DNA from: Parvularia atlantis
Taxonomy: Eukaryota; Opisthokonta; Rotosphaerida
Assembly (NCBI GenBank): GCA_943704415.1
Contig: CALSCO010000784.1
Location: 1-26,908, forward strand
Direction: 5' to 3'
Length of the DNA stretch: 26,908 bases
A program made the position numbers and the translations under genes. The notes beneath the pieces were generated by a model. The model searched no databases, had not been told where the DNA came from, and was given only the letters and a program-made list of their open reading frames with translations. Of the stretch, positions 1,275 to 25,625 are shown piece by piece; position 1 is the first letter of the stretch, and every line of letters starts with the position of its first letter.

Positions 1275-4200
1275 ATGGAGGTGTGTGACAGCGCGCGCCA
1301 TGTGGCGGGCCTGCTCAACGCTCTGCGCCGGCCTCGCAGAGGGACCGGCCGCAGCACAAGCACAAGAAGGGCCGCGCCGGCGTCAAGTTCGACCGCCGCC
1401 AGGGGCGCGCGCAGCAGAAGCAGGCGCAGCGCGAGGAGGCGCAGCAGCAGCGCCGCGACGCTGGCGACGCCGGCGACGCCGCGGGCGTGACCGACGAGAC
1501 GACGCGCGCCGGCAAACACGACAAGTCGAGCAACGCCAAGGCGCGTTGCCGGCCACGGGCAGCCTGCGTGGATGGCTGACGTGTACTCGCACGCACAGGC
1601 GTTTGCGCTCAACTCGGGCCGCTCCGCCCTCCGCGCCGTTGCGCGCAACGCCGACCGCGAGCAGCGCCGCCTGCACGTGCCGCTGGCCGACCGGTCGCAG
1701 GAGGAGCCGCCGCCGGTGCTCATCGCCGTCGTGGGCCCGCCCAAGGCACGCGCTTCCTGCGTGTGTAGACGTGTGCTGAACGCGCACGAAACGCCAGGTC
1801 GGCAAGAGCACGCTCATCCGCTCGCTCGTCAAGCGCTACGCGGCGCAGAACCTGGGCGAGGTCAAGGGCCCCGTGACGGTCGTGTCGGGTGCGCAGTGTC
1901 CGTGGCAGTGCACGCGTGCTCACACGCCGGGGCCCCGCAAGGCAAGAAGCGCCGTCTGACGTTTGTTGAGTGCGCGAACGACATCAACGCGATGCTCGAC
2001 TGCGCCAAGTCGGCCGACCTCGTGCTGATGCTGATCGACGCGTCATTCGGGTTTGAGATGGTGCGCGCAGCGCCTCGTGTGTGCTACGTGTGCGGCTGGC
2101 GTGACGCGGTATTGTGGCGTGCAGGAGCAGTTTGAGTTCCTCAACATGTGCCAGGTCCACGGCTTCCCCAAGATCATGGGCGTGCTCACGCACCTGGACA
2201 AGTTCAAAAACATTGCGCAGCTGCGCAAGCGTAAGAAGGCGCTCAAGCAGCGCTTCTGGACCGAGATCTACGACGGCGCCAAGCTGTTTTACCTCTCGGG
2301 TCTGATCAACGGGCGCTACCCGAAGATGGAGATACAGAACCTGGCGCGGTGCGTCCGCACGGTCTGTACAAACGCTGAGGGGCGCGCGCTGACACCCGCG
2401 CTCACCAGCTTCATCTCCGTCATGAAGTTCCGCCCGCTCATCTGGCGCAACACGCACCCGTACATCCTCGCGGACCGCATGGAGGACCTGACGCCGGTGG
2501 AGCAGATCAAGGCCAACCCGAAGACCGACCGCCGCGTGCGCCCGCTGCAGCCCGTGCGCCCACATTGTGCGCCGCTGACCGCGAGGTGCCTCGTTGCAGG
2601 TCACGCTGTACGGCTACGTGCGCGGCACCAACCTGAAGCACGGCAACAAGGTGCGCCCAATGCGCCGTGCAGACGCCGTGCTGAAAGCGGCGCTCCCGTC
2701 AGGTGCACATCGCGGGCCTCGGCGACTTTGCCGTGGCCGAGGCGACAATGCTGCCGGACCCGTGCCCGCTCCCGGACACGTTCAAGGCCAAGACGCTCAA
2801 CATGAAGCAGCGCCTGCTGTACGCGCCGGTGCGTCCAGCGCGCGTGCGCGCGTGAAGGTGGCCGCAGCGCGTCGGCTGATTGCGCGCGGCGTACAGATGG
2901 CCGACATCGGCGACATCCTGTACGATAAGGACGCGGTGTACATTGAGGTGCCCGGGGTGTACTCCAAGGCCGCACCCAAGGACGACGACGACGACGCTGA
3001 GGGCGAGGACGGGACTGCGCCGGCGCCCAACCTTGGTGCGCCGTCGTCGGCGAGCGCGGCGGCCGCCTGGCCTTACCAGACGCGCCGGCAGCGCGTACCG
3101 AGGGCGACTCCATGATGCTAGACCTGCAGAACACGCGGCGGCCGGTGTCGGAGCAGCTAAAGCAGAGCGAGGTGCGCCTGCTTGCCGAGTCGGTGCCGCT
3201 GCGGTCCGAGGACGTCGAGCACGATGGTGCGCGCTTGTCGCGCTTCCGCTGTGACTAAGTGGCTACTGCAGGCCGAGTGCGGCGGCGTGTTCTTTTCGAC
3301 GACGACAACGACGACAACGACGACAACGACGACAACGACGACAACGACAGTGGCGCGGATGACGGCGACGACGACGACGATGGCGCGGATGACGATGATC
3401 GCGGTCCACGGCGAGTGGGTCGTGCGCTGGTGGCGTGCCCGGGGCCTTGAAGTGCGCGTGCTTTCCCCTGACAATCGCGTGCCGCCAGGACCTTGACGAT
3501 GGCGACCAGGAGCACTACGGCGGCATCGCATTCGAGGACAGCGACTCGGATCTGGGCAACGCCGAGGACGACGACGATGATGCCGCACAAGACGAAGATG
3601 CGGCGGGCGGTGATGATGCGCAAGCGAGCTCGCAAGCGAATGAGGACGCCAACGACCAGCAGTCGCAGGAGCTGTCGGCGCTCAGGTGGAAGGCAAGCGG
3701 TGCACTCGCGCACAACGCACGCACGCACTGACTGCCGTGCGGCCCTGGCCAGGAAAATATCAACGCCCTGGCCGACCGCGCGTTCCGGCTGGGACGGCGC
3801 GTCAACCTCATGGCGCTCGTGTACGGCATCGACAAGAAGAACGCGCTCGAGAGCGACGAGACGCGCGCCCAGAGCGACGACCTGTTCCGCGTGCGCCAGC
3901 CGACCGGTAGCGGCACGGGCGATGACGACGTGACACAGAGCGTGGACAGGTGCGCACACCGCCGAGGACGCCCATGCGCGTGCATGCTCACGCCGCGCCG
4001 CATCACAGCATCAAGGCCCTGCTGCGCTCGGGGGGCTACTTTGACGGCGCCGAAGACTGGAGCGACGACGAGGTGCAGCAGTCGATCCGGCACCGCTTCA
4101 TCACGGGCGGGCCCGCGCCTGTGGCGCCAGCTTCCGCGGCGGGCGAAGACGACGAGGCCGGTGCGCTTGGCCTCCGTGCGACTCGCGGCGGCACATTGAT

Positions 4201-6417
4201 GAGCGCCACCAGACGGCGACTTTGAGGACCTCGAGACGGGCGAGAAGCACGCGGGGCAGGCGGCGCCTGCGACGGCCGACAGCATGGCGGTCGGCCACAA
4301 TGACGACGAGCCTGCCGATGAGGACGAGCTGATGCGCAAGAAGGCCGAGCTCAAGCGCAAGTTCCTCGAGCAGTGCGTGCGCATGCACGTGTACCGGCCG
4401 TGCCTGACGCAGCCGCCGCAACGCAGGTACGACGCCGAGACGGAGGCCAAGAGCGCGGGCGGGAAGGACCAGACGTACTACGATTCAATGAAGGAGGAGA
4501 TCGACGCGCAGCTGAAGAAGAACCGCGCCGAGTTTGCCGACGAGTCGGACGAGGTGCGCCGACTGCGCCCGTGCCTGCTGCTGCTGCGCGTTCTCAGCGC
4601 AGCTGCGTTGCGCGCCAGGCACGCACGCTCTACGAGGGCTTCCGGCCGGGCCAGTACGTGCGTCTCGTGTTTGACGGTGCGGCTGCGCTGTGAAGACGAC
4701 GTCTTTGACTCGCACCGCAGGCGTCCCGTGCGAGTTTGTGGAGCACTTTGACCCGCGCGTGCCCGTACTGGTCGGTGGCCTGCTGCCGGGAGAGGACGCA
4801 CTCGGGTTTATCCAGGCACGTTTGCTTGTTCACGTGCATGTACGCGGGGCTGACACCAGGCTATACACCAGGTCCGCATCAAGCGCCACCGCTGGTTTGG
4901 CCGCGTGCTCAAGAACAACGACCCGCTCATCTTCTCGATCGGCTGGCGGCGGTTTCAGTCGCTGCCGATGTACTCGCTCAAGGACGACGGGCAGCGCAAC
5001 CGCATGCTCAAGTACACGCCCGAGCACATGCACTGCAACGCGACCTTCTACGGTCCCATCACCCCGCCCAACACGGGCCTGTGCGCGCTCCAGTCGCTCG
5101 CGTCGAACACGGTGCGCGTCCGCGCTGCGCTGCGCCGACGGCCTGCTCACGCGCGCTGCCCCCTCCGTGCAGCCGCACTTTCGCGTCGCGGCCACGGGCG
5201 TTGTGCTCGAGCTCGACAAGTCATTCACGCTCGTCAAGAAGCTCAAGCTGACGGGCGTGCCCGTGCAAGTGTTCAAGAACACGGCGTTCATCAAAAACAT
5301 GTTTACGAGCGCGCTTGAGGTGGCCAAGTTTGAGGGCGCGGCCGTGCGCACCGTGTCGGGTGCGTGCGTGCTGGCGCGTGCGTGCACCGGCGGCACTGAC
5401 CGCGACGTGGCGCCTCGCAGGGATACGCGGCCAGGTGAAGAAGGCGCTGCCAAAGCCCGAGGGGTGCTTCCGCGCGACCTTTGAAGACAAGATCCTCATG
5501 AGCGGTGCGCGCACAGGCACGTGCGCGCGCTGTGCTGAGCGTGCGTGCGCAGACATCGTCTTCCTGCGTGCCTGGGTGCCCGTCACGCCGCGCAAGTTCT
5601 ACTTCCCTGTGACGTCGCTGCTGCTGCCCGACAAGACGCAGCCGTGGGTGGTGCGTGGCCGGCCGAGCCGTTGTGATGAGTTCCCGCTCACGCGCTCGGC
5701 CAGGGCATGCGCTCTGTCGGCGAGCTGCGGCGCGAACGCAGCGAGCGGGCGCCGGTCAAGAAGGACTCGCAGTATCAGGTATGCGTGCAGAGCAGCGGCT
5801 GTCGATCTGAGCGCGCGTGCGCGCGCGCGGGCTTCAGAAAATCGTGCGCAAGGAGCGCAAGTTCAGTCCGCTGCAGATCCCCAAGTCGCTGCAAGCCGCG
5901 CTACCGTTCGCGTCCAAGGTGCGGGCGTGTGCGGGCGTGTGCACCGAGGCACCGAGCGTTACGGTCGCTCCGCCGTCGCGCAGCCCAAGCAGCTCAAGCC
6001 GCGCGCGTCGAGCAAGCCGACGTACGCGGTGCGGCGCGCAGTGGTGATGGACGAGAGCGAGAAGAAGGCGCGCACGCCACCGCTCGCGTGCACGAGCCGT
6101 CACGTGACGCCCGCCACCCCCGCCAGATCTACACGCTCATGCAGCAGATCAACACGCTGCGCAATGAGAAGGCGCAGACGCGGCGGCTCAAGGACGACCA
6201 GCGCAAGGCCGAGCACGTGAAGAAGCTCGCCAAGGAGGAGGTGCGCACGCTCTCTCTCGCGCGCGCGATATGTGCCGTCGCGCTCGCGAGTGTGCTCACG
6301 CGGCGCCACCGGCAGGCCGAGGCGGCGGGCCGGCGGCGCGACGCGAAGCGCAAGCACTTTGAGGAGGCGGCGCGAAGCGGCAAGCGGTCGCGGCCGTCTG
6401 ACACGCAGCAGCAGTGA
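1275..6417 (+). CDS. BMS1: Ribosome biogenesis GTPase BMS1
   Basis: BMS1 is the nucleolar GTPase that binds Rcl1 and drives 18S rRNA processing in the small-subunit processome. The spliced protein is about 1190 residues, matching yeast length. Recognisable blocks in order: the start M-E split from a basic HKHKKG tail; HVPLADR; the P-loop [89 protein letters not shown]; a long acidic middle; [40 protein letters not shown]; the C-terminal core [45 protein letters not shown] and [20 protein letters not shown]; then a basic coiled tail. I place 27 introns. Five use GC donors (1541-1598, 1746-1797, 3693-3752, 4816-4871, 6068-6126). The first coding exon is only ATGGAG. Confidence 0.96.
3301..3345 (+). 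repeat. Five tandem copies of GACGACAAC within BMS1
   Basis: A perfect 9-base unit occurs five times in a row and is flanked by partial units, coding for a (DDN)n run in the acidic linker of BMS1. The exon then continues with further GAC-rich sequence. It is in frame, so length changes would be tolerated in a disordered acidic region. Confidence 0.85.
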
Positions 6418-6536
6418 GCGCACAAACAGCGGTCAGTGTGCGACAGGGATGCGCTGGGCGTACTGGTGCACGCGCGCGCGACGAGTGCGTCGTTTGGGTC
6501 GAGGCCGACAATCTCGTCACGGCGGGATAAATGCTC

Positions 6537-6548
6537 TGGAACGTTCCA
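6537..6548. promoter_or_regulatory. Perfect palindrome resembling a heat-shock element
   Basis: TGGAACGTTCCA is a perfect 12-base palindrome containing GAA and TTC spaced by two bases, the inverted pair recognised by heat-shock factor. A further GAA lies five bases downstream, out of the canonical five-base register. It lies upstream of the RGS gene. Factor binding is inferred from motif resemblance only. Confidence 0.35.
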
Positions 6549-6727
6549 CCGAAACACACGTGCGACGTAGGCACGTTGTCACAGCGATCGACGTGCCGCG
6601 TGATTGGCTCGCTGCGTCGCACGCAGCACAAAAAACACTGCCCCTGTTTGAGCCGCGCGCGCGCGGGGGCCCTGCTGTCCCCCACCCCCCCCCCACCCGC
6701 CGGCGCGTCGGCCGCGGCGCACGTGTA

Positions 6728-6746
6728 CTGAAACGCTTCGTTTCAG
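6728..6746 (+). promoter_or_regulatory. Inverted repeat CTGAAACG / CGTTTCAG with 3-base loop
   Basis: Two perfect 8-base arms flank CTT, 15 bases upstream of the predicted start codon of the RGS gene. In RNA this would be a compact hairpin in the 5' leader; in DNA it could be an operator-like site. The right arm also ends in TTTCAG, so it could alternatively be an intron acceptor for an unseen 5' exon. Confidence 0.4.
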
Positions 6747-6761
6747 GTGAAAAAAAGGACG

Positions 6762-8946
6762 ATGCTGTCGCCGCTGTCGAGCCCGTGGTCGGCACAGGAG
6801 ATCTTTGGCGTGGCGACGTGGCCCGTCGTGCTGTTCATGCTGCCGTGTGCGTCCTCTGCATGAAACGTGTGGGGCGGTCCGTGACGAAGACGCCTGCGCC
6901 GCGCAGACACGGTCCTGTTTGTGCTGCGGCGGCACCGGCGGCCGATCAAGGTGCGCGCCGCTCGGCAGTGTGCGTGCGAGCGTGGCTGACGGCGCACACC
7001 AGGGGCGCATGATCGGCCTGTCGCTGGCCATGGACGTGGCGACGATCCTGTGGGCGTTCGTGCTGTGCTGGAAGATGGTCTTTTGGCGCGACTGGCCGTG
7101 CCTGCTCAACATCTGGGACTCGCACATCGTCGCCAACTTCCTCGCCGTACTGTACATGGCCCGGACGTGGCTGCTGCTGATCGAGCACAACAAGACCGAC
7201 CTCAAGAACGCCATCGCCACCGCCTCCTCGCCCGCGCAGATGGACGCGTACCAGCCGCAGCTGGGCTGGCGGCCATCGCAGGCGCGTTGTCGGCGCGCGG
7301 CGGCGCTGGACGGCGGCCTGACGCCGCAGCACAGATCGCCGCGTACGTGACCTACATCGTCTCGTACGCCTCGCCGCGCTTCGTCGTCTCGGTCGTGCTC
7401 GTCGTGCTTACGGCCACGATCATCCCCGTGTTTATCTTCACCAACAGGGCCGCGCCGCCGGATGACTTTTGGGCGTGGGGTGCGCCGTGTGCGCCGCGCG
7501 GCGACGGCGGCCACCTCACGCCCGCGCCGCGCGGCAGAGGGCTGCTATACCACGCCGGCGGCCGCGCTGCTCGCCGCCGAGCTGGTGATGTACGCGGCCG
7601 CGGCCACGGCCTTCGCCTTCAAGATCCGCAGCAGGGAGGACGACAACTACGGCATCAAGAACGAGCTGCGCATCACGGGCTACACTCTCGCGATCTACGT
7701 CGTGCCCTGGGTCCTGTTCAATCTCGTGCCCAAGCTGCGCGCGCTCAACGACACCGTCTTCCGCATCACGACCGCACTCGCGCTCTTTCTCATCACGCTG
7801 CTGTTCGTCTTCCGCACGGTCCTGCCTGTGCACGACAGCGTGCGTGCTTTGCGTCGCGCGGTGCACCATGTGCTCACGCCGCGCGCGCACGCCAGTACCG
7901 CATCCGCCGCATCTACAAGCGCAGGGTCAGCCACGAGATTGACCAGTTCACCGAGCTGCGCTTCCTGCTAGCCAACCCGAGCGGCTTTGCGGTGCGCGCC
8001 TGCACCTTGCTGTTTTTTTTTTGCGGGTGCGCTGACGCCCAGCCGCACCCAGGCGTTTGCGTCGTTCCTCGCCAAGGAGTTTTCAAACGAGAACATCCTG
8101 TTCTGGGACGAGGCGCGCACGTTCCGGCACTACGTCGAGCGTGAGATGTCGCCCATGAGCGAGATCATGAAGAGGTGTGCGTCGCGGCGTGGTGGCTGCG
8201 CGGGCTGACGCAGCGCACCGCGCCACAGCGCACAGGCCATCTTTGACAAATACATCGCCGAGGGCGCGATCGCGCAGGTGCGTGGGGCCGCACTGTCGTG
8301 CAGACATGCCATGGCCGCTCACGCGTCGCCGCAACAGGTCAACCTGACGCACGGCATCGTTCGCGCGCTCATGGCGCGCATGAGCAAGCTGCGCGAGGCC
8401 GCTGCCCTCCCCGGCGTGTCGCCCACCGACTCGGCGCTCAAGCACCAGGCCGGGCAGCTCTACGCCGAGGCCGAGAAGCACATCTTCAACGTGCTTGTGC
8501 AGGTGTGCGCAGGCGTGCGTGCTGCCGTGAAGCGCGTTGCTGACACGCGCGCGCATCGCAGGACCCGTACCCGCGCTTCTGCCGCAGCGCAGAGTACGCT
8601 GCCGTGCGCGAGCTGGTGCAGGACATCCGCATCGAGGCACGCACTCCCCGAGCGCGAGACGCGCGGCGCTGTGCTGTGCTGATGCGCGTACGCCAGTTTG
8701 TCAGCCTCGGCCCCGACGCGGCCACGCAGCGACTGTCGTCGATGTACTCGCTCCTGCCGCCGCCCGTGCACTTTGTCGACCGGCCATCACTCGGTGCGCA
8801 CGCCTCCTCTTTGTGCGCGCACGGCTGCTGACCCGCGTGGCGCAGCGGTTGACTCGGACCTCGAAATGCACAGCAGCACGTCGTTTCTGCTGCTCTCGCC
8901 GTCGTCCGGCGCACCGCCTGCGCGCGACGCCGAGGTCGAGCCCTGA
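6762..8946 (+). CDS. Seven-transmembrane RGS-domain protein
   Basis: The protein is predicted to be a membrane protein that accelerates GTP hydrolysis by a G-alpha subunit, combining a GPCR-like bundle with an RGS domain as in plant AtRGS1 and fungal GprK. About 515 residues are spliced from 12 exons. Seven hydrophobic segments are visible, around VVLFMLPYTVLFVL, LSLAMDVATILWAFVL, NFLAVLYMARTWLLLI, VVSVVLVVLTATIIPVFIF, ALLAAELVMYAAAATAFAF, LAIYVVPWVLFNLV and ALALFLITLLFVF. They are followed by the RGS core FASFLAKEFSNENILFWDEA, AIFDKYIAEGA, VNLTHGI and IFNVLVQDPYPRFCRS. A Ser-rich tail ends the protein. The start is the first ATG giving TM1 in frame. The intron at 7282-7334 has a GC donor after CAG. 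A second possible GC-AG intron (8637-8696) is 60 bases, in frame and stop-free, so it might be retained. Confidence 0.85.
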
Positions 8947-9038
8947 CCGGGGCCGCACGCATGGCAGCTGCTGTGCAGCCGCCTTGTAGTAGCAGCAGCA
9001 CCATCACCACCACCTTGTCCAGCTATTGTCAACTCTCA

Positions 9039-12000: not shown

Positions 12001-12267
12001 CGTTTCGGCGTCCGAGCCGCTCACGAAGACCTCGCGCGCGAACGGGTCGTCCTCGTCGTCCTCGTCCTCGTCCTGTTTGTCGTCCGCGCCCTCGTCGTCA
12101 CCCTCGTCGTCGTCGTCCTCGCGGATCTCCAGCCGTCCAAACAGGTCTTCGCCCTCGTGCGCCCCCTCGTCGCGCGCGCGCACGCGCGTGGCCGCCGCCA
12201 CCGCTGCAGCAGGCGCCACAGCGGGCGCGGCAGGTGCAGTCGAGGTGCGCTTGCCACGTGGCCCCAT
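9039..12267 (-). CDS. ERB1: Ribosome biogenesis protein ERB1/BOP1
   Basis: ERB1 (BOP1 in animals) joins Nop7/PES1 and Ytm1/WDR12 in the PeBoW complex needed for 27S/32S rRNA processing of the large subunit. The spliced product is about 745 residues, the usual length, from 18 exons. After an acidic N-terminus comes the BOP1NT region: [85 protein letters not shown] and [17 protein letters not shown]. The WD40 propeller follows ([73 protein letters not shown], and a final [15 protein letters not shown]). All introns I place have GT donors; the first acceptor (near 11838-11850) is ambiguous. The start MGPRGKRT lies only 19 bases past the proteasome gene's stop. It converges on the RGS gene with 92 bases between stops. 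Confidence 0.95.
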
Positions 12268-12277
12268 CGTCACCAAA

Positions 12278-12283
12278 CACGTG
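12278..12283. promoter_or_regulatory. CACGTG E-box in the 19-base gap upstream of ERB1
   Basis: The whole space between the proteasome stop and the ERB1 ATG is 19 bases and contains CACGTG, the core bound by bHLH factors such as Cbf1/USF/Myc. In DNA of this composition the hexamer is expected by chance about every 3 kb, so the evidence is positional only. Confidence 0.3.
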
Positions 12284-12286
12284 ACC

Positions 12287-13405
12287 TCACTTGGGCCCGG
12301 CGGCCGACGCCGACCCCTTCTTCTTGGCAGCCTCGGCCGCTTCCTTCTCCTTCTCGAGCTGCTGCACGAGCGCCTCGAGCTCGGCTGGGTCCATGAACTG
12401 CGCGAGAGCGCGTCAGCACGAGCTTTGCGCGTGCAAAGACGGGCAAAACGGCGCACCCGGACTTTCTTGTCCTTCTCCATCACGGCCACCTCAATGTTCT
12501 TCGCGCCCGACTGCACGACCTCGAGCAGCGAGCGCACGGCGAGCTTGATCGTGTCGTCGGTCGACATGTTGTCCTGCGTTCGCGGCCGGCCGGTCAGCGT
12601 GGGACCGTGCGTGCGTGTGCGCGCGCCCACGTGCCTGATAGTTCTTCTCGAGAAACTCACGCACGGTGACGTAGCTGCGGCCGATCGCGTTGGCCTGCGT
12701 GCACGCGTGGGGGGTCAGCACGCGGCCGGCAGGCGGCAGGAGCGCGCGCCTTCCACGCATGGTAGATGCCCGACGGTTCGGTCTGGTACAGCCGCGGCAC
12801 GCCGGGCGTGTCGAAGCCGACGATGAGCGCTGCGATGCCAAAGGGCCGTGCACCACCGCGCTGCGTGTAGCGCTGCGAGGCGGGGCCGGTTGCGCGACAA
12901 GCGGACAGTGTAGGGCGGCGACCCGCGCACCTGCTGCACGCCCGCGATGTACCGCGTGATGTACTCGACCGTCACGCGGTCCTCGACCATCAGGCGGTGG
13001 CTTTGGCACTCGACGCGCGCGCGGTTGACGAGCACGCGGGCGTCGGCCGAGAGGCCTGCACGGGACGCTTGTCAGCGCGCCCACCGAGCGCGCGCGCGTG
13101 TGCTGATCTCGCCCCGTTGCGCACCTGCGAAGGCCATGCACACGTGGTCGTCGAGCATGACGACCTTGCGCACCGTGCGCGGGTCCTGCAGCTTGAGCAC
13201 GGTCTTCTTCTCGACACCGAGCACGACGCAGTCCTTCCCGCGCACGCCGACCTGCCGCCCGCGCCGTGAGACGCGCTGTGACGCCGGGTCGCGCGGCGGG
13301 GCGCACCGCCGTCGTGCCGCGGCGCACGGCCTCCATGGCGTACTCGACCTGGAACAGGTGCCCGTCGGGGCTGAAGACCGTCAGCGCGCGGTCGTACGAG
13401 CCCAT
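12287..13405 (-). CDS. PRE6: 20S proteasome subunit alpha-4 (PRE6/PSMA7)
   Basis: This is an alpha-ring subunit of the 20S proteasome, structural rather than catalytic. The spliced protein is about 258 residues from seven exons. It opens [19 protein letters not shown], carrying the alpha-subunit N-terminal signature. It continues [115 protein letters not shown] and [15 protein letters not shown] Lys/Glu-rich tail follows; both the order of blocks and this tail match alpha-4. Two of the six introns use GC donors (12695-12749 after AAG, 12574-12634 after CAG). It lies 112 bases from DPH5 and 19 bases from ERB1, all on one strand. Assignment to alpha-4 rather than another alpha subunit rests on the VECQSHRL and AWKANAIGR blocks. 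Confidence 0.95.
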
Positions 13406-14721: not shown

Positions 14722-14722
14722 G
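14719..14722. promoter_or_regulatory. CATG shared by two divergent start codons
   Basis: The minus-strand ATG of DPH5 (14721-14719) and the plus-strand ATG chosen for archease (14720-14722) overlap in one CATG, leaving no intergenic DNA between the coding regions. The DPH5 start is well supported by homology. The archease start is supported by three successive exons that join in frame. Confidence 0.6.
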
Positions 14723-15948
14723 AGTTTCAAGAGAGCCGCGGGAGCAGGTGAAACTGGCGACGAAACGCCGGCGCGAATCGGATGCGGCGCCGGCCACAGA
14801 CGACGACGCGGCCGAGGGCGCGGGTGCGCCTGAAGGGCGATCGCGTGCCAGCAGCTGAGACGGCGCCGGGGGGGGGGGGGGGGGGGGGGCGCAGAGGAGC
14901 ACGTAGACGACGTCGAGGCCGACGACGGTGCCGGCGCGCCGCACGATGAGGAGGCCGACCCGCACGAGGGCGAGGAAGGCGTCGCGGGCGACGACGGCGA
15001 CGACGGCGAGGATGGCGAGGGTGAGGAGGGCTACGAGGGCGGCGAGGGCGCCGAGGGCGAGGAGTACGACGACGAGGGCGAGGGGACCGAGGGCGAGGGC
15101 GACGACCCCGAGAGCGCCTGGCCGACCCATCTCGCCGACATGGAGGTCGATCTGACGGCGCCCGCGGGCTACGAGTGTGCGTGGCGGCGGGCTGGCGGCT
15201 GTCTGGCGGGCGCGCTTGCTGAACCCGCACCCACCCGCGCACACCAGACAAGGACCACACGGCCGACGTCCAGTGCGTGCGGCCGACCTTCGCGGCCCCG
15301 TGCTGATGGTGTGCGCGCACGCAGGCTGCACGCGTGGGGCCCGACGCTGGCCGCGGCGCTCGAGCAGCTCGTCGTGGCAATGTTTGGCTACATGACCGAC
15401 CTGCGCCAGGTTTGTTGTCGCCGCTGGGCGCACTGTCGTGCTGAGACGCGCGTCTCGCGCAGGTCGACGTCGACGAGACGTGCACGGCCCAGATCGAGGC
15501 GTCGGGTGCGCCGCTGCGCCTTGCTCGGCTCGGCCCAGCCCGGCCCGCTCACCGCAACGGATCGCAGGACACGACCTGCCGTCGCTTGTATTCAAGCTGC
15601 TGGACGAGTTCCTCTTCCTGTTTTCGACGCAGCTCACGGTCGTGCGCGACGTGCGCGTGCACCACGTGGACCTGCGCAAGTTTGCCGTCGCGGCCGAGGG
15701 GTTTGCGGCCACGCTGTTCTCTGTGCCGCGCGGCCCTGCTCACACGCTCGCGCAGGAAAGGCGAGGTCTTCGACATGCACAAGCACCCGCAGGGCACGGA
15801 GGTCAAGGCGATCACGTACTCCAACATGCAGGTGTTCACGGACGTGGCGGGCGCGCCGGTGCCACTCGAGACGGGCGACAACGTGGGCATCGTGCGGCCC
15901 TGGACCACGCCCGGCCGGCACGAGCTCTTTGTGATCATCGACATCTGA
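14720..15948 (+). CDS. Archease (tRNA-splicing ligase cofactor) with acidic N-terminal extension
   Basis: Archease promotes guanylylation and multiple turnover of the RtcB tRNA ligase. The conserved domain is spread over small exons: YEYKDHTADVQ, LHAWGPTLAAALEQLVVAMF, GYMTDLRQVDV, HDLPSLVFKLLDEFLFLFST, VRVHHVDLRKF, and the hallmark MHKHPQGTEVKAITYSNMQV, ending at the invariant FVIIDI. The total is about 273 residues against about 167 in human; the excess is an Asp/Glu/Gly-rich extension of roughly 110 residues. From the ATG at 14720, exons 14720-14747, 14800-14823 and 14895 onward join in frame ([20 protein letters not shown]). Starting at the Met at 15139-15141 would remove the extension. 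Intron 1 has a less typical GTGAAA donor. Intron 2 (14824-14894) contains 22 consecutive G. Identity is firm; the start is moderately supported. Confidence 0.9.
14868..14889 (+). repeat. Poly-G run (22) inside archease intron 2
   Basis: Twenty-two consecutive G lie on the sense strand between the branch region and the GCGCAG acceptor of a 71-base intron. Such a run can form a G-quadruplex in RNA or on the non-template strand. Its exact length may be affected by sequencing error. Confidence 0.85.
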
Positions 15949-16020
15949 GCACTGCGGGCGCTGCCGACTCGACATGATGGAAGACGCATGTGTCTTTTTG
16001 CGCGCGAAGGCCGTTGCAAA

Positions 16021-18703
16021 ATGGCGTGCACGCCGCCGCGCGCCAAGGTGCGCCCACCGCCACCGGCCACCGCGGGCCACGCCTGACACGCGCACGGACG
16101 CAAGACGGAAGCAGAGCCGTGGCTACTGGCGTCGCCGCCGCCGCCGAGCCCCGAGCGGCGCGGCCTGCGTCTGCGCGGTGCGCCAACACACGCTGGGGCA
16201 CCGTGTTCGCTCACACCAGAGTGCAGACGCCAACGCGCTCGCGATGCCCGGCGCGGGCGAGTCGCCGCACAAGCGCAGCAGCCCGCTCAAGGCACGGCAG
16301 CAGCTGCTGGGCAGTGCCGAGCCGCTGCTGGCGCAGGCCAAGTCGCCCGAGCGGCATCCCGGCGCGGCCGCGCTCTTCCTGGCAGACAAGGAGAATGTCT
16401 TTGAGGTGCGGCGCGCGCCGCCGTCGGCCCTGTCGCGCAGCATGCGCTCACGCCGCATGCGCACACGTGCAACGATGCAGCCCCTGCGATCCCTGCCCGA
16501 CGGCGACGCGCTGCACCCGCCCGCCGTGCCGTGGACGAGGGCGACGCCCGCGGCGCCCCTCAGCTACCGCTCGCCGACCAAGGCGCGGCACACGCGCGCG
16601 TGACACACCGCGCCCACCCCCTCGCTGATGTCGATGCATGCCGCCAGACGCCGCGCGCACCCGCTGCGCCACGACCCGCCATCCCGCAGTTCTTCTTCCC
16701 CGGAGGCGGGGCCGCGCAGATCGACGCGCTCGCGCAGCGGCAGCGTGCCCAGCTGGTGCGTCGCAGGCGGGCGACCTCCCCTCCCCTTGCCGCCGTCGCG
16801 TGACATGCGCACGTGCCGTACAGGACGCCGTGCGCCACCTGTTTGCGCCCCACGTCGCCCTTGACAATTTCCACCTCGTGTGCAACGCCGTCGGACTGCC
16901 GCGGTGCTTTGCGCGGCCGCTGTTTGACGCCGTGACGGGGCCGGTCGAAGACGACGTCGAGCAGCTGCCCTACGCCGACTTTGCGCGGTGCGTGGCCGTG
17001 GCTACGCCGGCCGACAACAGCGTGTCTTACACGAGCCCAGCTTCTGGACGGCCTTCTCGAGCAAGTTCACGGACGAGCGCGGCCAGGCGTACGCGCTGCT
17101 CGTGGGCGATGGCGGCGGCGAGCTCGAGCCAAAGTGCCTGCTCACGATCATCTACGGTGCATCACGGCTGGCACGCGTCCGTCATCCGCACGCGCGCTCA
17201 TCGCCGGTCTCGCTTGCGCAGACATCGTCCTCACCCACCCGGCCCTGAGCTTTCTCCAGGGCACGGCCATGTTCCAGGAGCGCTACGGTGCGCGCGCGCA
17301 CGCACGCTTCGCCCTTGTTGACACCCTCGCAAATACAAAAAAAGTCGAGTCGGTCATCGTCCGCATCTTTTACGCGCTCGACCGCGGCCGCACGGGGCGC
17401 ATCACGCTGCGCGATTGGCGCAACAGCGACGTGCTCGACGCGATGCGCGCGGTCGAGCACGCGAGCGACGTCAACACGGTGCGCTGACTCTGGCAGCGGC
17501 GGGTGGCGCTGAGCCCTCGTGCAGGTCGTGCAGTACTTTTCGTACAACCACTTTTACGTGCTCTACTGCCGCTTCTGGGAGCTCGACAAGGACCACGACG
17601 GGCTGATCGGAAAGTGCGCACGCCCCTGCCTGTGCGCGCGCTTGCGGGAGAGTCGCTCACCGGCTCGGGCGGCGCGCAGGTTTGAGATGCTGCAGTTTGA
17701 CGAGGGCGCGCTCAGCACGCGCGTGGTGGACCGGATCGTCAAGGGCTTTGGGCGACTGGACCAGGTGCGCGACACCTGCACAGGCGGGAGGCGCGCGGGG
17801 TGGCTCAGCGGTGCCCCGTGCGCAGAACTCGAGGGACCTGCGCTCCAACACGACCGTGCGATCGCGTGCCGAGGTCGGCAAGATGAACTTTGAGGACTTT
17901 ATATGTGCGCGCGGCGCGGCGCGGCGCGCTTGGCTGGCGATCCCTGCGCGCGCGTGACCGTGTCCTCGCGCAGGGTTTCTCATGAGCGAGGAGGACAAGA
18001 CGACGCCGACGGCCATCGAGTACTGGTTCCGCATCCTCGACTTTGTGCGCTGCGCGGTGCTGCTGCGCGGCGCACTGCTGGCTGAATTCGCCGCTGGACG
18101 CGCTGCGGCCGTAGGACCGCGACGGCTTGCTGTCGATGTTTGAGCTCGAGTACGTGATCGAGGAGCAGATCAAGCGCCTTCAGCAACTCGAGGCCGACCC
18201 GCTCAAGCTGCGCGACATCTTCTGCCAGATGTGAGCGACGCACACTGGCAGCGCTGTCTGTGCGCTCACTGGCCCTCCCGCCCGCCTGCCCAGGTTTGAC
18301 TACATCCACCCGCGCAAAGGCACGAGCATCACTGTGGCCGACATCAAGCGCTCGCGCCTCGCGCCGGTCTTCTTCAACGCGCTGTTCAACGTCGAGAAGT
18401 ACATCGCGCACGAGCTCAAGGAGCCCGCGCAAAAGCGCCGTGAGCTCGCCCTGCCGCCCATGAGGTACACGCGCGCGCATTCGTTTGCGCCCTCGTCTGA
18501 CTTGGCGACCGCCGCGCAGCGACTGGGACCGCTTCGCGATGATCGAGTACGAGTACCTGGCCGAGATGGAGCGGCAGGAGCAGCAGAAGCGCGCGGCGGG
18601 TGCCCGGACCGCGCTCTTTGCCGCCGCGGCGCACGACTCGCCCGACGCGATGGACGGCGTCGTCGTGGGCTCCGAGCTGAGCGACGAGGAAGACGGGCTT
18701 TGA
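16021..18703 (+). CDS. PP2A regulatory subunit B'' (PPP2R3 family)
   Basis: B'' subunits are EF-hand proteins that target and regulate protein phosphatase 2A. About 594 residues come from 16 exons. The ATG at 16021 (context AAAATGG) gives exon MACTPPRAK (16021-16047), then [15 protein letters not shown] (16105-16177), which joins in phase to [15 protein letters not shown]. The family core follows: [68 protein letters not shown], the first EF-hand-like loop [37 protein letters not shown]-like [20 protein letters not shown], the second loop [14 protein letters not shown], and [17 protein letters not shown] charged tail ends DEEDGL. One intron (16583-16647) has a GC donor after AAG. It lies 72 bases after archease and converges on Hook with 65 bases between stops. 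Confidence 0.92.
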
Positions 18704-18768
18704 CTTCTGCACGTGGGCCCACAGACGACAGCACCACAGAGACACACAAAAAGCCGCCGTGCGCGCTT

Positions 18769-21700
18769 CTAACTCGCAGACAGGCCCGGCCGCGCCGGCG
18801 TCGCCTTGTCGGCCTCGGCGCGTTTCCGGCTGAGCCATGTCGCCGAGCGCGTGCCCGCCCCGGCGACCTTGGTCCGCTGCGTCTGGATTGACAGGTTGTA
18901 CCACGCCGTGGCCATGAGTCGCTGCTCGGTCTTGGCCGTGTCGAACAGCTGCTGGAAGCCCTCGCGGATCTCCTTGAGCCTGGCCTCGGCGTCGGCGACT
19001 GCGAGCGCGGTGTCAGATCCACCAAACGCAACGCCGCGCACGCACCACGCTGCGACGCGTCCTCGCTGCTGACCTGCGACACGAGCGCGAGTGGCGTCAG
19101 TTCACGGCAGCGCAACAACAAAGCCGCCACCTTTTGCGTCTCCTTCTGCAGCGCGTCCTTGAGCTTCTTGAGGCTGACCTGGTGCTCCTTCAGGCTCGCC
19201 TGCAGCTCCTCGATTTTCTCTGCACGCCCGCGCCGGCGTCAGTACCACCACACGCACACGCACCCCCCCCCCCCCCCCCCCCCCCTGCGCACCCATCGCC
19301 AGCTTGAGCTTCTCCTTCAGGATCTCGGGGTGCTCGGCTGCGTTCATCGGCAGGCCCTTCTCTAGCACCTCGGCGTACTTGACCTGCAGCAGCATGTGAG
19401 AGGGGACGCGAGCACAGACCCCGGGCTGCGGCACCTGCATCTCGTTGATCTGCGTGCGCAGCGTGCTCTCCGTGCGCATGTGCGTCTGCACCTGCAGGTT
19501 GAGGTCGCTGCGCGCGGCGAGCACAGCAGATCAGTCAGCAGGCGACAGCGCGTGCGGCCGGCGCACTTGTTGGCCGCCTGCAGCGCGTTCAGCTCGGCCG
19601 TCATCGCCTGGTGCTTCTTCTCGAGCGTCGCAAGCTCGGCCTCGCGGGCCTCCTTCTGCGCCGCGACCGACTTGATCTGCGGCGCCCGACCAGTCAGTCC
19701 CGCGCGCACAAAATGGCGCGTGCAGTGCGCACCTGCTCGTGCATGCGCCCGTCGTACTGCTTCTTCAGCTCCTCCATCATCTGCTGCTGGTCCTTGCCCA
19801 CGAGCGCCACTGTGCGCGGGCGTGTGAGAGGCCCACCCCAGCGCCCATGTCGCACGCACGCTCCGCCTTGAGCGTGAGCGACTCTTTCGTGAGCGCGTCG
19901 AGCGCGTCCTTGGTCGCCGATAGCGTGCGCTGCAGGTCGGCCAGCTGACGACCGCAGCGCGGTTCGTCAGCCGCGCAGCGCGGTTCGTCAGCCGCGCAGG
20001 CTGTGCGTACCTCGCGCTCCTGCTCAAGCAGCTTGGCGCGCGCCGTCTTGAGCTCGCGGTCGCGCTCGGCCAGCTGCGTGAGCACGGCTGTGTCGTCCCT
20101 GCGCGGCTGTCAGCCGGTGGCAGCGCAGAGCACGGAGGGGGGCGCGTGCGTACGCGGCACGGAAGGTCATCGATTTGGTCTCGAGCTGCTGCAGCTGCGC
20201 CTGGAGCTTCTCGACCGAGTCTACGCACGCACGCGCGACCGTCCAGCGGGGCGCGCACAGGCACACGCGCACACGACGGCACCGTTCAGGTGCAGCGACT
20301 TTTCAAGCTCCTCCTTGTACTTTTGCTCAAGCGCTTCGCGTGCCTTCTTCTCGTCGTCGAGCATGCTGGGCGGCGTGAACGCCCACGCTCAGATTGGGGG
20401 CGCAAGGCGCACCGCACCACAGCACCTGTTCAGCAGCACCTCCTTGTCGCTGCCTCCGGCGCTCTGGCGCAGTGAGCGGTTTTCGCGCTCGAGCCGAGTG
20501 ATGCTCATTTTGCTGCGCCGCAAATCAGTCACCGTGCCCGACGGCTGCCGTGGCGCGGGCACGCACAGCTCGTTGACGATCGTCGCCTGGCCCAGCTCGG
20601 CGGCAAAGCCGGACACGTCTGCGGCCGTTGCGCCGTCAGCTTGCACACACGGCGCCTGCACGCAACCCGCGCACCACCGCCCGCGCCGCCGCCACCGGTC
20701 GCGCCCATCAGCTCGGCCTCGCGCAGGCGCGTCTCGAGCGCGTGCACCTTCTCGAGGCTCTGCGTGCGCTCGGCCTCGAGCCCGCTCACCTGAGGCGGGC
20801 GCTCAGCACACACGCGCGGACGCGCGGTGCGGTGCCACAGCACAGACCTGCTCACGCAGCTTCTTGAGCTCAAACTCAGCCTTGGTCTGCGACGCCACAA
20901 GCTCCTGGTTTTTGCTCGACAGGGCTGGGCCACGCGCCTGAGCGCTGCTGCTTCGCCGCATGCGCGCGCCGCGCGCACGCACCGGCGACCTGCTCCTTGT
21001 ACGCCTCGACCGCGCTCTGCTTAGACGCGGTCTTCACGTAGGCGTCCTCGAGCTGGTTCTGCTTGGACAGCGTCTCCTCCTTCTCCTGCTGCAGCAGCTT
21101 GACCTGCTTGCGCAGCTCGGTGGCCTCCTCGGCCTTCTGCTTGAGCTTCTCAATGATGGCCTCAGACTACGATGTGCGCGTTGCGCAAGCCTTAGCCTGT
21201 TGGTCCGGTCGCATCGCCGCGCGACGCACCTTGGCGAGCCGGTCGGTCATGTGCTTCATCTCGTCGAGCTGGTCGCGCAGGCGTGCGGCCTCCTCCGCCT
21301 GCTTCGCCAGGCTCTCGTTCTGGCGAGGAGGCACGCCCGCGGGTCAGCACGCCTGCGGGTCAGCACGCCTGCGTTGCGTCGCGCTGCGCAATCGGCACAC
21401 GCCTTCTTTGTCAGGTCGCTGATCGACACCGCCTGCTTCTCGGCCAGCTGCTCCGCCTCCTGGCGCTTGGAGTCCGCTTTGAAGCTGCGCATGCCAGGCC
21501 GCTCCATCAGCCGCAGGTCTGCACCGGCAAGAGAGCACACGCACAGCTCCGCCCGCAGCGAGTCGAGCTCGACGCGCAGCACGACGTCTTGCCGTGACGT
21601 CTGATCCTTGCGCGTGAGCAGCTCTTCCCGCTGTTGCGCCTCCTGCAGCTTGCCCTTGAGGTCGTCGTTCTCGAGCAGGAGCTCCTCCTGCAGTCGCGCA

Positions 21701-22681
21701 CGCGGGGTGAGTGCGCTGGCGCGTGTTGCTCTGCGCACGACCGCGCACGTTGTTGCGCGTGAGGCTGTTGAGGTCGGCCGCGAGCTTGGTCTTCTCGGCC
21801 AGCAACTGCTCCTTCTCGGCGGTCAGCTGGTGCAGCTCGGCGCTGAAGTCGGGCTGCTGCTCTTGGCTCCTGCAGCGCGCAGCGTGAGGGTCACAAAGCA
21901 AGGCGCGCTCATGCGTCGCGCACCCGCTCGAGTACGTGCGCGCCCGCGCCGCGGCCTGCGTCAGGTCCATCACCTCCTTCATCACGGCGGCGAGGATGAA
22001 CTGGGTCTGCTCGCTCAGCTCGGTGATGCGCTGGATGTACGTCTCGTTGTTGGCGCACATGATCGCGCAGCCCATGACGATCTTTGCGGTCGCGCGGGGG
22101 CGGCGCAGTCAGCGCCTCGTGCTCGTCGTCGCACACGCGCACGCGCGCAGAGACCCGCACCTGCACCAGCCGCGCGACCAGCTTGACCGTCGGGTGCTGC
22201 GCCACTTCGCTCGGCGGCACAATGAGTGCGCTGCTCTCGAGCTCGAACCCGCTCTGCTTCTCGTACCAGCGCGCGAGGTTCTGCATGGCGGGCGCCGCGT
22301 CAGCCGGCGCGCACAGGCTGCACGCGGCGCGCCTTGAGCAGCTTCTTCAGGTTGGCCTCCTTCAGCACCCAGTTGTCGCGCGCGTCGGCCTTGACCGTCG
22401 ACATGTTGAACAGGGCTGGGTCGCTGCGGCGCGCGCGGCGCGGGTTGGCGCGCATAGCGGGGACAGCGGGGACGGCGGTGCGGGCACGCACATGTCGTTC
22501 ATGATCTCAAACAGCGCCACGCCGTCGGCCAGGTCTAGCAGCGTCTCGGGCTGGCTGCGGAGCGGAAACTGGCGGACCTGCGGACCGGCCATGCGCCCGT
22601 GAGCCGCCGTGCCCGTGCGCCGCCGCGCCGCACCCAGTCGAGCAGCGCGCTCGCGAGGTCGTCGTCGTCCATGTCGTCCAT
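18769..22681 (-). CDS. Hook-family dynein adaptor
   Basis: Hook proteins link early endosomes to dynein-dynactin through an N-terminal CH-like domain and a long coiled coil. The spliced protein is about 840 residues from 25 exons. The start MDDMDDDDLASALLDW opens the Hook domain, which continues DLADGVALFEIMNDIDPALF, NWVLKEANLKKLLKNLARWY and ETYIQRITELSEQTQFILAA. A coiled coil of several hundred residues follows (for example TAEKEQLLAEKTKLAADLNS, LETRLREAELMG, MSITRLERENRSLRQ). The C-terminus LMATAWYNLSIQTQR plus a short basic tail matches the AWYNMGM ending of animal Hooks. GC donors occur at 22281-22332 and 21320-21402. One intron (19220-19292) contains 23 consecutive G in sense, and two introns carry perfect tandem duplications. 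The gene lies 82 bases downstream of the SAC2-like gene on the same strand. Confidence 0.92.
19263..19285 (-). repeat. Poly-G run (23, sense strand) inside a Hook intron
   Basis: On the plus strand this is 23 C; in the Hook transcript it is 23 G, starting a few bases after the GTGCGCAG donor end of a 73-base intron. It closely mirrors the 22-base run in archease. Confidence 0.85.
19954..19995. repeat. Perfect 21-base tandem duplication in a Hook intron
   Basis: The unit GCAGCGCGGTTCGTCAGCCGC (21 bases) is repeated exactly at 19954-19974 and 19975-19995. On the sense strand each copy contains a GGCTGACG branch-like motif, so the intron has two candidate branch sites. Confidence 0.9.
21339..21370. 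repeat. Perfect 16-base tandem duplication in a Hook GC-AG intron
   Basis: GCGGGTCAGCACGCCT is repeated exactly (21339-21354, 21355-21370). In the sense direction each copy contains GTGCTGACCC, again duplicating the branch-like motif. The host intron (21320-21402) begins GC after AAG. Confidence 0.9.
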
Positions 22682-22763
22682 GGTGTCGGGGGCTGCGGCG
22701 TGTGCGCGCGGCTCAGTGCGTGGCACAACCGGCACGAGCCATACAACACACAAAGTGCGATGC

Positions 22764-22771
22764 TCACGTGA
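22764..22771. promoter_or_regulatory. TCACGTGA palindrome overlapping the SAC2-like stop, upstream of Hook
   Basis: An 8-base palindromic E-box begins at the stop codon of the SAC2-like gene and lies 83 bases upstream of the Hook ATG. It is a candidate bHLH site for Hook. The same core hexamer occurs in the gap upstream of ERB1. It is suggestive only, since the hexamer is fairly common in GC-rich DNA. Confidence 0.3.
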
Positions 22772-25625
22772 CCGATACTGTCTGTGACGCATGTAGCGCG
22801 GGCTCGGGCGTCGTCGCGCCGAAGAACCACAGCGTCCGCCGCCGGCTGAGCGGCTCTTCCACGACCTGCGAGCGCGCGGGCGCGCGCGCGCGGGGGGATT
22901 GGGCGACCGTCGTGCACGCCCAGGGCAGCACGGATGGCGCGCACCTTGAGGCGCTCCTTCACCGCGGCGGCGTAGGCGCGCGCGAGGACCTGCACGAGGT
23001 CGGCCAGCAGCAGCGCACCGTCGCCCTCCATCGGCGCGTGCGCGCGGATAATGTAGGTGCGCACGCCCTCGCGCTCGCTGCGTCCGCGCGTGCACCGGCG
23101 CGTTCAGCGGCCAGGCGGGTCGGGTACACATGCGCGAGCGCGCGCGCACCGCTCGGCCGCGTCGGCGGGCGCGTGCAGGGTCACGAACGTGCGGAGGGCG
23201 TACGTGCCGGGCATGCCCTGCGTCGAACGTTGAAAACATCCACGGGCGGCGCGCGTACTGCGACTGCGCACCGCGAGCGGGCCCTTCTGGACGTGGTCGA
23301 TGTCCTCGAGCGGGATGCGGATAAAGTGGTCCACAGCCGCGGCGCGAGCGCGCAGCTTGATGCGGTAGCACGCGAGGCTCGTAAGCATCAGCAGGCGCGG
23401 CTGCAGCTCCTCGCGCTTGTTGATGCTACGCGAGCGTCAGCGCACGCGCGCGCAGAGCCATCCTGCGGGGCGACGTGCCTCGTCACGGGCCACACGCCCA
23501 GCACCGTTTCATTTTCGCGCAGACCGATCGCGGGCATGAGCGGGCCGAGCTGCTGCGTCTGCACGGCGCGCGTCAGCCCCCGTGCGGCGCCACCTCACAG
23601 CAAGCGTGCCTCGACGTCGAATGTGACCAGCGCGAAGCCCGCACGAGCCGGGCGCGGGGGCACGGGCATCAGGCCGAGCGCATAGGCCAGGGCCTCGTCC
23701 AGCTGCGTGCGTCTATCAGCCGGCCTGCGCACGCACTCCGAGACCGCACCGCGTTCTCGGCCGATGGCGCCTGGGCAAACGCGCGACGGATCGGGTCCGA
23801 CGCCTGCAGGCCCATCTCGACGGCGCGCGTGGCGTGCCAGACGCGGTGGATCGGCTTGGACGCGTCCGTGTGCTCGCGCCAGACTGCCGCGCTGCGGTCA
23901 GCCCCACGTGCGCGCATCGTGTGCCCTCGCACCGCTCATGCCAACCTGCCGCCACGCCATAATGGCCGCGCCGCTGTCTTCCTGCAGGCCGGCCATGCGC
24001 TGCAGCAGCACTTGGGCGAGCTCGGTGTGGGCGGTCATGCTCGTGTTGAGGCTGCCGTTGTCGGCCGCGACGTGCATGAGGCCGCGCTGGATCAGGCTCA
24101 CGTCGCGCCCGGCGCTCGACGACGTTGAGCCCTCGGCCGCCTGCATCGGGCCCGCGAAGAAGCTGTGCGCGCGTGGCGACCCGTCAGTCGGGAGACCCAT
24201 TGCGCCGCGCACGCACCCCAACTGCAGCAGCCGGCGCGTCAGGTGCGGCGACAACATCGCCTCCTGCAGGTCGCTCGGCGCCAGCTCGGGCGGCGGGGCG
24301 ACCTCCTGGCAGTAGCTGCGCGCGCGTTTTAGCCCTCTCGCAACGGCGATCGTACGCATCGGCACCTCACGCCTGGTGTCTGCTGCAGCATCGTCGCAAA
24401 GGGCGTCATCTGCGCGCCAAAGTTGACCAGGACGACCGACTCGCACTCCTTGGCCAGGGCGGTCACGTAGCGGCGCAGCAGCGACTGATGAGGGTGCGCG
24501 ACGTCAGCGGGTTGCGGTCTCGGCCGCCTGCCAGGGCGGGCGTCACCTCGATCGCCTCGTTGGCCGCCTGCTTCTGCGACGCCAGCACACGCGGAGCCGC
24601 GCCGCGGCGTTGCACAAAGCTCGCGAGCTGCGCGCCGCGGCAGACGACCAGCTCGACCTCGACCGGCGGCGTGAGCGGGGCGGGCCAGTCTGCGCAAGCG
24701 CGCGTGAGCGACGTCGCGGTCACCAAGGGGGCGCCACCGAACCGTTGCGCGACACGATGCCGCAACGCGTGACGATGGCGATGCTGCTGCCGCTGCCGAT
24801 GTTGGCCACGCCGTCGAGCTGGCGCGTCGTGATCGCTGCGCGCCTTCCCACCCTCAGCAGGCATTGCGCGCGCGTGTCTGTGACGCGCACCGCCGAGCAC
24901 AAGCGAGACCGTCCACTTGCGCTTAAGCTGCGTGCTCTCAACGAACGGCCGGCACATCGATCGGTTCCAGCAGAAGAGCGGGTCGGGGCTGGCCGAGCCG
25001 CGCTCCTGACACGGGCGGGTGAGGTCGAGTGTCGGGCAGTAGTGCAGCACGCCGCTCTGCATTAGGCGGCGCAGCTCGTCCAGGCGCGCCTGCTCGAGGC
25101 GGCGCTGCACGGTGGCGATGAGCCGATCGGACGCGTGCGCGCAACACGCACCGCCGCCTCGGGCAGATCCAGCGGCACGTAGCCGATGCGCACAATGTCG
25201 ACCGCGCGGACCGTGTGCGCGGCGTGGCCGCCCCAAAGCGCGCGCTGCGAGGTCTCGCTGAGCAGGACGAGGTGCGGCCCTGCCATAACCCGTTCTTCAG
25301 GTGCACACGCTCATGCACGCGCCCGTAGTACGCACCCAGGCCCGCGTCCAGCACGCCGAGTACACCGACGTACGCCCGCGACGTGACCAGGACCGAGTCG
25401 CGCAGCGTGTCTGCGCCCGCGGGCGCTCAGCGCAAGGCACCACCCTGTCATCGACTGCGTCACACACCGCTCTCGCTCAGCGCGCCCGTGTCACGCGCGA
25501 CGAGCAGCGCGGGCCCCGCATCGGGCGGCTGCAGCACGAGGTGCGTCTGGGCGGGTTGGGTCCGGTCAGCACCAGCAGCGTGACGCCGTTGCTGGTTTGC
25601 GCGCCTCGTTGGCGAGGAGTTTCAT
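22764..25625 (-). CDS. SAC2/INPP5F-like protein, predicted catalytically inactive Sac domain
   Basis: INPP5F/SAC2 is an endosomal PI4P phosphatase with a Sac domain followed by an hSac2 homodimerisation domain. About 650 residues come from 17 exons. MKLLANETHLVLQ parallels the INPP5F start. Further matches are LHYCPTLDLTRPCQ then DPLFCWNRSMCRPFV (YDLTNSVQ..FFWN), VEVELVVC..LASFVQRRGA (VETEQ..SFVQTRGS), and the hSac2 region FIRIPLEDIDHVQKGP and RTYIIRAHAPMEGDGALLLA. At the catalytic site, where the family has CX5R(T/S), the sequence reads GLMHVAADNGSLNTS: the Cys position is Ala (24063-24065) and the Arg position is Asn (24045-24047). The motif rich in RAGTR and VANFVETE is also eroded. GC donors occur at 25547-25604, 23559-23609 and 23426-23478. 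It ends 82 bases before Hook. Confidence 0.72.

Follow-up and report, generated by a model that had tools for sequence, protein, structure and literature searches.

GC-AG introns at high frequency in Parvularia atlantis: donor context and a proposed mutation-selection account

Introns that begin with GC instead of GT make up less than 1% of mammalian introns (PMC7072748, PMC11590231, PMC2490688) and, on average, 1.009% of fungal ones (PMC7072748), with 1.85% in the hand-corrected annotation of the mushroom Ganoderma lingzhi (PMC11590231). Much higher shares have been described in GC-rich algae. GC-AG introns reach 39.6% in Aureococcus anophagefferens (69.5% GC) and 22.2% in Micromonas pusilla (65.9% GC), both with a canonical U1 small nuclear RNA (snRNA), and 7.7% in the GC-rich genome of Chlorella, an abundance that Iwata and Gotoh (2011) termed an enigma (PMC3033335). 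In Emiliania huxleyi (65% GC), they account for 56% of 241 curated junctions, some verified by reverse transcription PCR, and the authors consider GC content the likely cause (PMC4028052). The RNA-seq-supported share of 3.46% in Globodera rostochiensis occurs in a genome of 38.1% GC (PMC4901422) and therefore has a cause other than GC pressure. Here we describe the GC-AG introns of Parvularia atlantis, starting from the whole of contig CALSCO010000784.1 (C188; 26,908 nucleotides), hereafter the window, in the 16.25-Mb, 616-contig assembly GCA_943704415.1.

The window's 1-kb bins, which stand in for the assembly, are 65–74% GC, and the high share of GC-AG introns matches that of the GC-rich algae: this is a further case of a known phenomenon, with an unusually clear preference for AG at the exon end, and it demonstrates no new mechanism. 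Both systems combine high GC with elevated GC-AG use, and Aureococcus and M. pusilla have, as here, a canonical U1 5′ end; the dependence on exon-end AG and on A at the third intron base (+3A) is measured in the present data. E. huxleyi is likewise GC-rich with common GC-AG introns, at 56% against ∼7–11% here, and G. rostochiensis has the elevated share in common. Mammalian GC donors are closer to consensus at their other positions, apparently offsetting the C at +2 (PMC2490688); this compensation by the flanks recurs here, although the mammalian share is much lower.

Reality and frequency of the GC-AG introns

A two-strand hidden Markov gene finder was trained without supervision on the window and 20 regions of 20 other contigs (∼205 kb). 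It allowed GT, GC or any of 14 other dinucleotides as donor. The window was part of the training sequence, and the calls of the initial annotation were not supplied. The model holds no splice signal at exon positions −3 to −1, so exon-side statistics are not built in, and sample counts impose the same donor context on all donor classes. One region (L005) yielded no introns, and neighbouring genes were merged in places, such as a DPH5-like gene, the proteasome gene and ERB1.

Blind to them, the gene finder retrieved all 14 of the clear GC-AG introns that the initial annotation had placed by reading frame, at exactly the same coordinates, plus one at 8637 that is probably the annotation's additional, optional intron (introns are named by their first base; Table 1). 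All 15 start with GC and end with AG. The posterior exceeds 0.9 for 11 of the 14 and for 8637. The predicted proteins are coherent: BMS1, proteasome subunit alpha type-7 and the PP2A B'' protein match Protein Data Bank (PDB) chains, and Pfam matches comprise an RGS domain, archease, TP_methylase and a SAC2-type phosphatase. ERB1 and Hook are names carried over from the initial annotation.

Protein homology fixes 11 GC junctions without alignment gaps, five of them in the window. In BMS1, the junction at 1541 (NAK/AFAL) aligns to NPKAFAV of a homologue, and reading through this intron would bring a stop and a frame shift. The junction at 1746 falls within the conserved P-loop (GPPK/VGKST), where a rival GT donor at 1731 would remove P-loop residues; that at 3693 (ALRWK/ENINA) aligns to ALKWKEDLSRK, and that at 4816 to GYVQMRLKKHRW. 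Introns 1746 and 3693, of lower posterior, are secured by these gapless alignments. The BMS1 alignment as seen ended before 6068, which is thus outside the homology count. In proteasome alpha type-7, the junction at 12749 (YHAWK/ANAIGR) matches YHAWKANAIGR, and that at 12634 lies directly 3′ of the conserved FLEKNY, with one-residue gaps in the residues after it. The junction at 16583 is upstream of the PP2A B'' portion aligned to a PDB chain. Outside the window, gapless junctions occur in genes for FEN1 (one, L021) and cystathionine beta-synthase (two, L010), in a UFD2-like gene (two, L019) and in an HSP70-like gene (the second of two, L008); the first HSP70-like junction has a one-residue gap nearby and was left out.

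Ten of the 15 window introns retained the GC donor in their best path even when C at +2 was charged a ∼3000-fold cost. The paths that switched were those at 1746, 21402, 23478, 23609 and 25604. For 21402, the best GT-only path moves the donor two bases, to a downstream GT that it pairs with a weak acceptor (GAG); for 23609 and 25604, it takes donors 54 and 31 bases upstream, respectively. Intron 23478, the weakest of the 14, has a GT alternative 15 bases upstream. At the level of the sequence, the GC-AG introns of the window are confirmed as real.

The initial annotation had put GC-AG introns at about one in ten, and several estimates agree with this. The unfiltered best path through the window contains 119 GT, 22 GC and five other donors (n = 146). 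A by-hand filter removed seven of these GC calls (none after AG) and five other-dinucleotide calls and left GT calls unfiltered, giving 15 GC-AG introns among 134 (11%). Two removed calls, at 3229 and 25914, outscore the retained 23478; by eye, a GTGCGC donor lies two bases upstream of 3229, and 25914 may be a true donor. At a posterior above 0.9, the window holds 12 GC among 113 introns, and the window and 20 regions together give 607 GT, 47 GC and five other donors, a GC share of 47/654 (7.2%) of GT plus GC. This share is 10.1% at a cut-off of 0.5, 6.0% at 0.95 and 4.4% at 0.99, and 8.6% (38/441) among introns forced by reading frame, their length being indivisible by three. It is slightly lower outside the window than inside (35/541 vs 12/113 at posterior above 0.9; p 0.16). 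Eight loci excluded from training gave 6/57.

Tests against background point the same way. At equal prior, each of the 14 other dinucleotides, used as decoys, yielded 1–7 donors above 0.95, compared with 34–42 for GC, and summed posteriors were 21.5–55.4 for each decoy against 105.7–118.9. As decoys too gather summed posterior, weak GC calls contain noise. A model-free count took AG/GCRYG sites (R, A or G; Y, C or T) and scored those with a branch site and an acceptor downstream: 45 of 298 qualified, against 85 of 2008 when any of the 14 other dinucleotides stood in place of GC (p 4e-11) and 90 of 243 when GT did. After background subtraction and scaling by the AG-ending share of GT introns, this count puts GC at ∼10%, on the assumption of zero GC introns after non-AG exon ends. 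With a pyrimidine pair upstream instead, GC shows no excess (81/2137 vs 358/6790), whereas the GT excess remains (75/881). The share of GC-AG introns is far above the fungal mean, and the listings returned by searches of the open-licence literature show no fungus reported to have a share near 10%.

Donor context and the splicing machinery

In the window, every one of the 14 introns follows an exon ending in AG: eight in AAG, as the initial annotation had noted for most of them, and three each in CAG and GAG. Its further description of the donors as nearly all GCRCG and all but one in phase 0 also stands, with 12 and 13 of the 14, respectively; the donors off pattern are 3693 (GCAAG) and 21402 (GCGTG), and 23478 is in phase 2. 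The same context marks confident GC donors throughout the sample. AG precedes 40 of 47, compared with 161 of 607 GT donors (odds ratio 16), +3A is found in 21/47 against 21/607, and phase 0 in 44/47 against 308/607. The phase bias is mostly a by-product, since AG-ending GT introns are also largely in phase 0 (139/160, vs 39/40 for AG-ending GC introns; p 0.09). In the excluded loci, all six confident GC introns are AG-ending and in phase 0, and four have +3A; at posterior above 0.5, these loci give 67 GT, 12 GC and three other donors, with AG before one of the six weaker GC donors.

Stronger exon-side pairing with U1 had been proposed to compensate for the C at +2, and the idea of compensation is borne out and can be widened. 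Besides the enrichment of AG, the U1 pairing score computed without +2 is higher for GC than for GT donors (5.21 vs 4.42; p 2e-8), and the GC share over classes of rising score is 0/20, 3/128, 13/286 and 31/216. What does not hold is the restriction to the exon side and to U1. The context includes +3A, and AAG is preferred among AG-ending sites (GC 19/40 vs GT 46/160; p 0.037). Compensation is not assignable to U1 alone, because at −3 these donors prefer A to C or G, and the G of U1 opposite −3 would favour C. Going by a two-class model of donor recognition (PMC11732430), U5 loop 1 would fit the AAG preference better than U1.

GT donors of this genome have a context of their own. They read GTGCG, with +4C in 541/607 and +4G in ∼1%, compared with 55% C and 12% G at the middle position of GNG in intron bodies. 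Adenine at +4 is rare (13/607) despite matches to SNRNP27 and to the family that contains METTL16. GT introns also have +6T in 62% of cases if the exon end is not G and in 21% if it is AG, the see-saw that pairing of both positions within one U1 helix predicts.

Confident GC donors have the features of U2-type introns: +5G occurs in 46/47, and a CTNAC branch site in 30/47 compared with 337/603 for GT. U12-type introns, with an ATATCC-type donor and a CCTTAAC branch site (PMC3033335), were considered and rejected: the 15 window donors begin GC and their branch sites are mostly CTGAC or CTCAC, although no dedicated U12 scan was run.

Inspection of the U1 5′ end, which had been suggested as a check, gave the canonical AUACUUACCUG in the single U1 found (41 of 149 candidates scored). 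The one U5 match carries the canonical loop GCCUUUUAC (46 of 95 candidates scored), and the one U6 match reads ACAGAG (47 of 492 candidates scored). A variant U1, U5 loop or U6 ACAGA box as the cause is rejected, these being canonical in the copies found. The U6 match (L023 1501–1662; G000:C142:8820–8981) contains an insertion of ∼48 bases directly after ACAGAGAAGATTA and before GCATGG, with ends that fall short of a clean GT-AG intron. Some yeasts have introns in U6, but the match may instead be a divergent copy. Among proteins, there is a match to the SNRNP27 family, LUC7 family matches lie on two contigs (one gene or two), and the Methyltransf_10 family, which contains METTL16, matches with an E-value of 1.6e-52. 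As five of the 14 prokaryotic genomes used as controls also match this family, the match makes a METTL16 orthologue likely. Loss of METTL16 or SNRNP27K as the cause of the unusual +4 was rejected on the SNRNP27 and Methyltransf_10 matches.

Proposed mutational pressure and selection, and competing explanations

GC mutational pressure acting against weak selection, and eased by compensating flanking pairing, probably explains the GC donors. They would be ordinary U2-type introns in which +2 has changed from T to C. The genome's strong pull towards G and C would keep converting GT donors to GC, and the major spliceosome, with canonical snRNA letters, would still splice them, mostly where neighbouring pairing offsets the lost +2 pair; the offsetting context would be an exon end in AG, best AAG, together with +3A. 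The resulting balance of mutation and selection would hold GC at ∼7–11% of donors overall and ∼20–29% of those after AG. We infer both the mutational cause and the role of U1 and U5 pairing as compensator.

The numbers are consistent with such a balance. Intron bodies have a C/T ratio of 2.19, or 2.60 in a G-N-R context, and at a +2 position free to vary, C would make up ∼69% of the pyrimidines, against an actual 47 C to 603 T. Scaled selection against +2C comes to ∼3.3 overall, ∼2.2 after AG and ∼4.9 elsewhere. A moderate cost set against a strong mutational pull would give the observed share, and strong flanking pairing would lower that cost, so that GC donors accumulate there.

Several points weigh against this explanation. 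Micromonas RCC299 is 64.1% GC yet has 2.7% GC-AG introns (PMC3033335), so GC content alone is not predictive. GT donors avoid +3A (as a share of A plus G, 0.036 in GT donors, 0.447 in GC donors and 0.217 in intron bodies), and U1 pairing strength alone thus leaves +3 unexplained. The snRNA letters were read from one copy each with part of the candidates scored, and further copies are possible. Seven of the 47 confident GC calls lack an exon end in AG, and one of them, L019 7770 (ATG/GCGCG), sits at a gapless UFD2 junction and is a real GC donor. Two others, L009 2906 and 3322 (posterior 0.99 each), may be true donors; by eye, the calls at L009 306, L009 5436, L016 6453 and L018 6826 (261 bases, low complexity) are doubtful. 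The initial annotation's strict AG upstream is therefore exact for the 14 window introns and too strong for the sample: the AG preference of GC donors is strong, not absolute. The main figures keep L009 2906 and 3322 because both lie between a GTP cyclohydrolase II domain and a reverse-transcriptase-like part; if the stretch from 2900 on and a minus-strand call of this locus are taken out, GC stands at 42/638, with AG before 39 of 42.

An altered protein (U1-C, a LUC7 protein or PRP8, for example) or RNA modification might instead ease acceptance of +2C in this lineage, which we regard as unlikely. A share several times the fungal mean would suit it, as would the presence of at least one GC donor without AG, and with canonical snRNA letters the change would sit in proteins or modifications, as was proposed for algae by Iwata and Gotoh (PMC3033335). 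However, most GC donors keep AG and favour +3A, which a relaxed reading of +2 would not need, and they show the same closer fit to consensus as mammalian GC donors (PMC2490688). It is similarly doubtful that a derived spliceosome component (U1-C, LUC7, PRP8 or an snRNA modification), by lowering the cost of a +2 mismatch, has made +2C a regular alternative to T, with a separate code (AG/GCACG) beside the GT code (GTGCG).

Regulated splicing or retention, with GC-AG introns as a functional class, has a precedent: in human, nematode and Arabidopsis, GC donors are enriched where splicing is alternative (cited in PMC2490688). The distribution of the introns makes this very improbable here. Across the 59 genes that have three or more confident introns, GC dispersion is as expected by chance (permutation p 0.34), with the most extreme gene (L009, 8 GC of 23) kept in the test, and the positions of GC introns are unbiased (on average, relative position 0.47 vs 0.50). 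Retention would shift the frame or hit a stop in 14 of the 15 window introns, and 8637 alone, stop-free and a multiple of three in length, could be read through. Uneven use between genes had been proposed from ERB1, which was said to have no GC donor among 17 introns. The count is borne out: the gene finder gives 18 introns (16 GT, 1 GA, 1 CC), and, judged by eye, the GA call (10283) represents a misplaced GTCGCG donor, two bases off, while the CC call bridges ERB1 and the neighbouring gene, leaving 17 GT. The proposed unevenness is not, given the permutation result and a probability of 0.15–0.27 for 0/17.

A gene-model artefact, with nearby GT donors being the true ones, is largely refuted and the least probable explanation of all: re-annotation did lower GC-AG introns from 8.87% to 0.79% in Heterorhabditis (PMC5906903), and the five window sites that switch path when GC is nearly barred and the summed posterior drawn by decoys are in its favour, but the ten sites that keep GC, the 11 gapless junctions and the decoy and motif tests speak against it.

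Window introns, neighbouring features and implications

Table 1. GC-AG introns of the window and GC calls removed from it by hand (slash, exon-intron boundary).
Feature	Gene	Coordinates	Strand	Donor	Phase	Posterior	Remark
GC-AG intron	BMS1	1541..1598	+	AAG/GCGCGT	0	1.0	
GC-AG intron	BMS1	1746..1797	+	AAG/GCACGC	0	0.80	
GC-AG intron	BMS1	3693..3752	+	AAG/GCAAGC	0	0.85	
GC-AG intron	BMS1	4816..4871	+	CAG/GCACGT	0	0.998	
GC-AG intron	BMS1	6068..6126	+	AAG/GCGCGC	0	0.997	length indivisible by 3
GC-AG intron	RGS-domain protein	7282..7334	+	CAG/GCGCGT	0	0.909	RGS domain by Pfam
Extra GC-AG intron	RGS-domain protein	8637..8696	+	GAG/GCACGC	0	0.955	
GC-AG intron	Proteasome subunit alpha type-7 (alpha 4)	12574..12634	-	CAG/GCACGT	0	0.962	
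GC-AG intron	Proteasome subunit alpha type-7	12695..12749	-	AAG/GCGCGC	0	0.969	
GC-AG intron	PP2A B''-like	16583..16689	+	AAG/GCGCGG	0	0.963	read-through meets a stop
GC-AG intron	Hook-like coiled-coil	21320..21402	-	AAG/GCGTGT	0	0.986	
GC-AG intron	Hook-like	22281..22332	-	AAG/GCGCGC	0	1.0	read-through meets a stop
GC-AG intron	SAC2-like	23426..23478	-	GAG/GCACGT	2	0.734	
GC-AG intron	SAC2-like	23559..23609	-	GAG/GCACGC	0	0.91	read-through meets a stop
GC-AG intron	SAC2-like	25547..25604	-	GAG/GCGCGC	0	0.989	read-through meets a stop
Removed GC call		3229				0.81	
Removed GC call		6372				0.20	
Removed GC call		6598				0.21	
Removed GC call		8909				0.70	
Removed GC call		22819				0.18	
Removed GC call		25914				0.84	
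Removed GC call		26851				0.005	

Three other features were seen in the analysed sequence. An archease gene lies at 14782–15948 of the window (PF01951, E-value 1.7e-35); archease is a partner of RtcB-type RNA ligase and is unusual in yeasts, perhaps a hint of an early-diverging fungal lineage. Fungal_trans has one match in the assembly and integrin beta none, the latter in a search that had no positive control; from these a fungal affinity is likely. Downstream of the GTP cyclohydrolase II gene identified by Pfam in L009, the translation of ∼4343–5087 resembles, by eye, a reverse transcriptase. The protein predicted at L016 5017–9685 has a calponin-like part and many IQ-like repeats and looks ASPM-like by eye, which may point to a lineage with centrioles or flagella.

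In such a genome, gene finders restricted to GT donors would be expected to break about half of the genes rich in introns, or more. The genome is also a clean natural setting in which to test how pairing at other positions makes a mismatch at +2 tolerable. Finally, the mutation-selection account predicts a numeric link between the neutral C/T ratio, the exon end and the share of GC donors, which would be testable across GC-rich eukaryotes.

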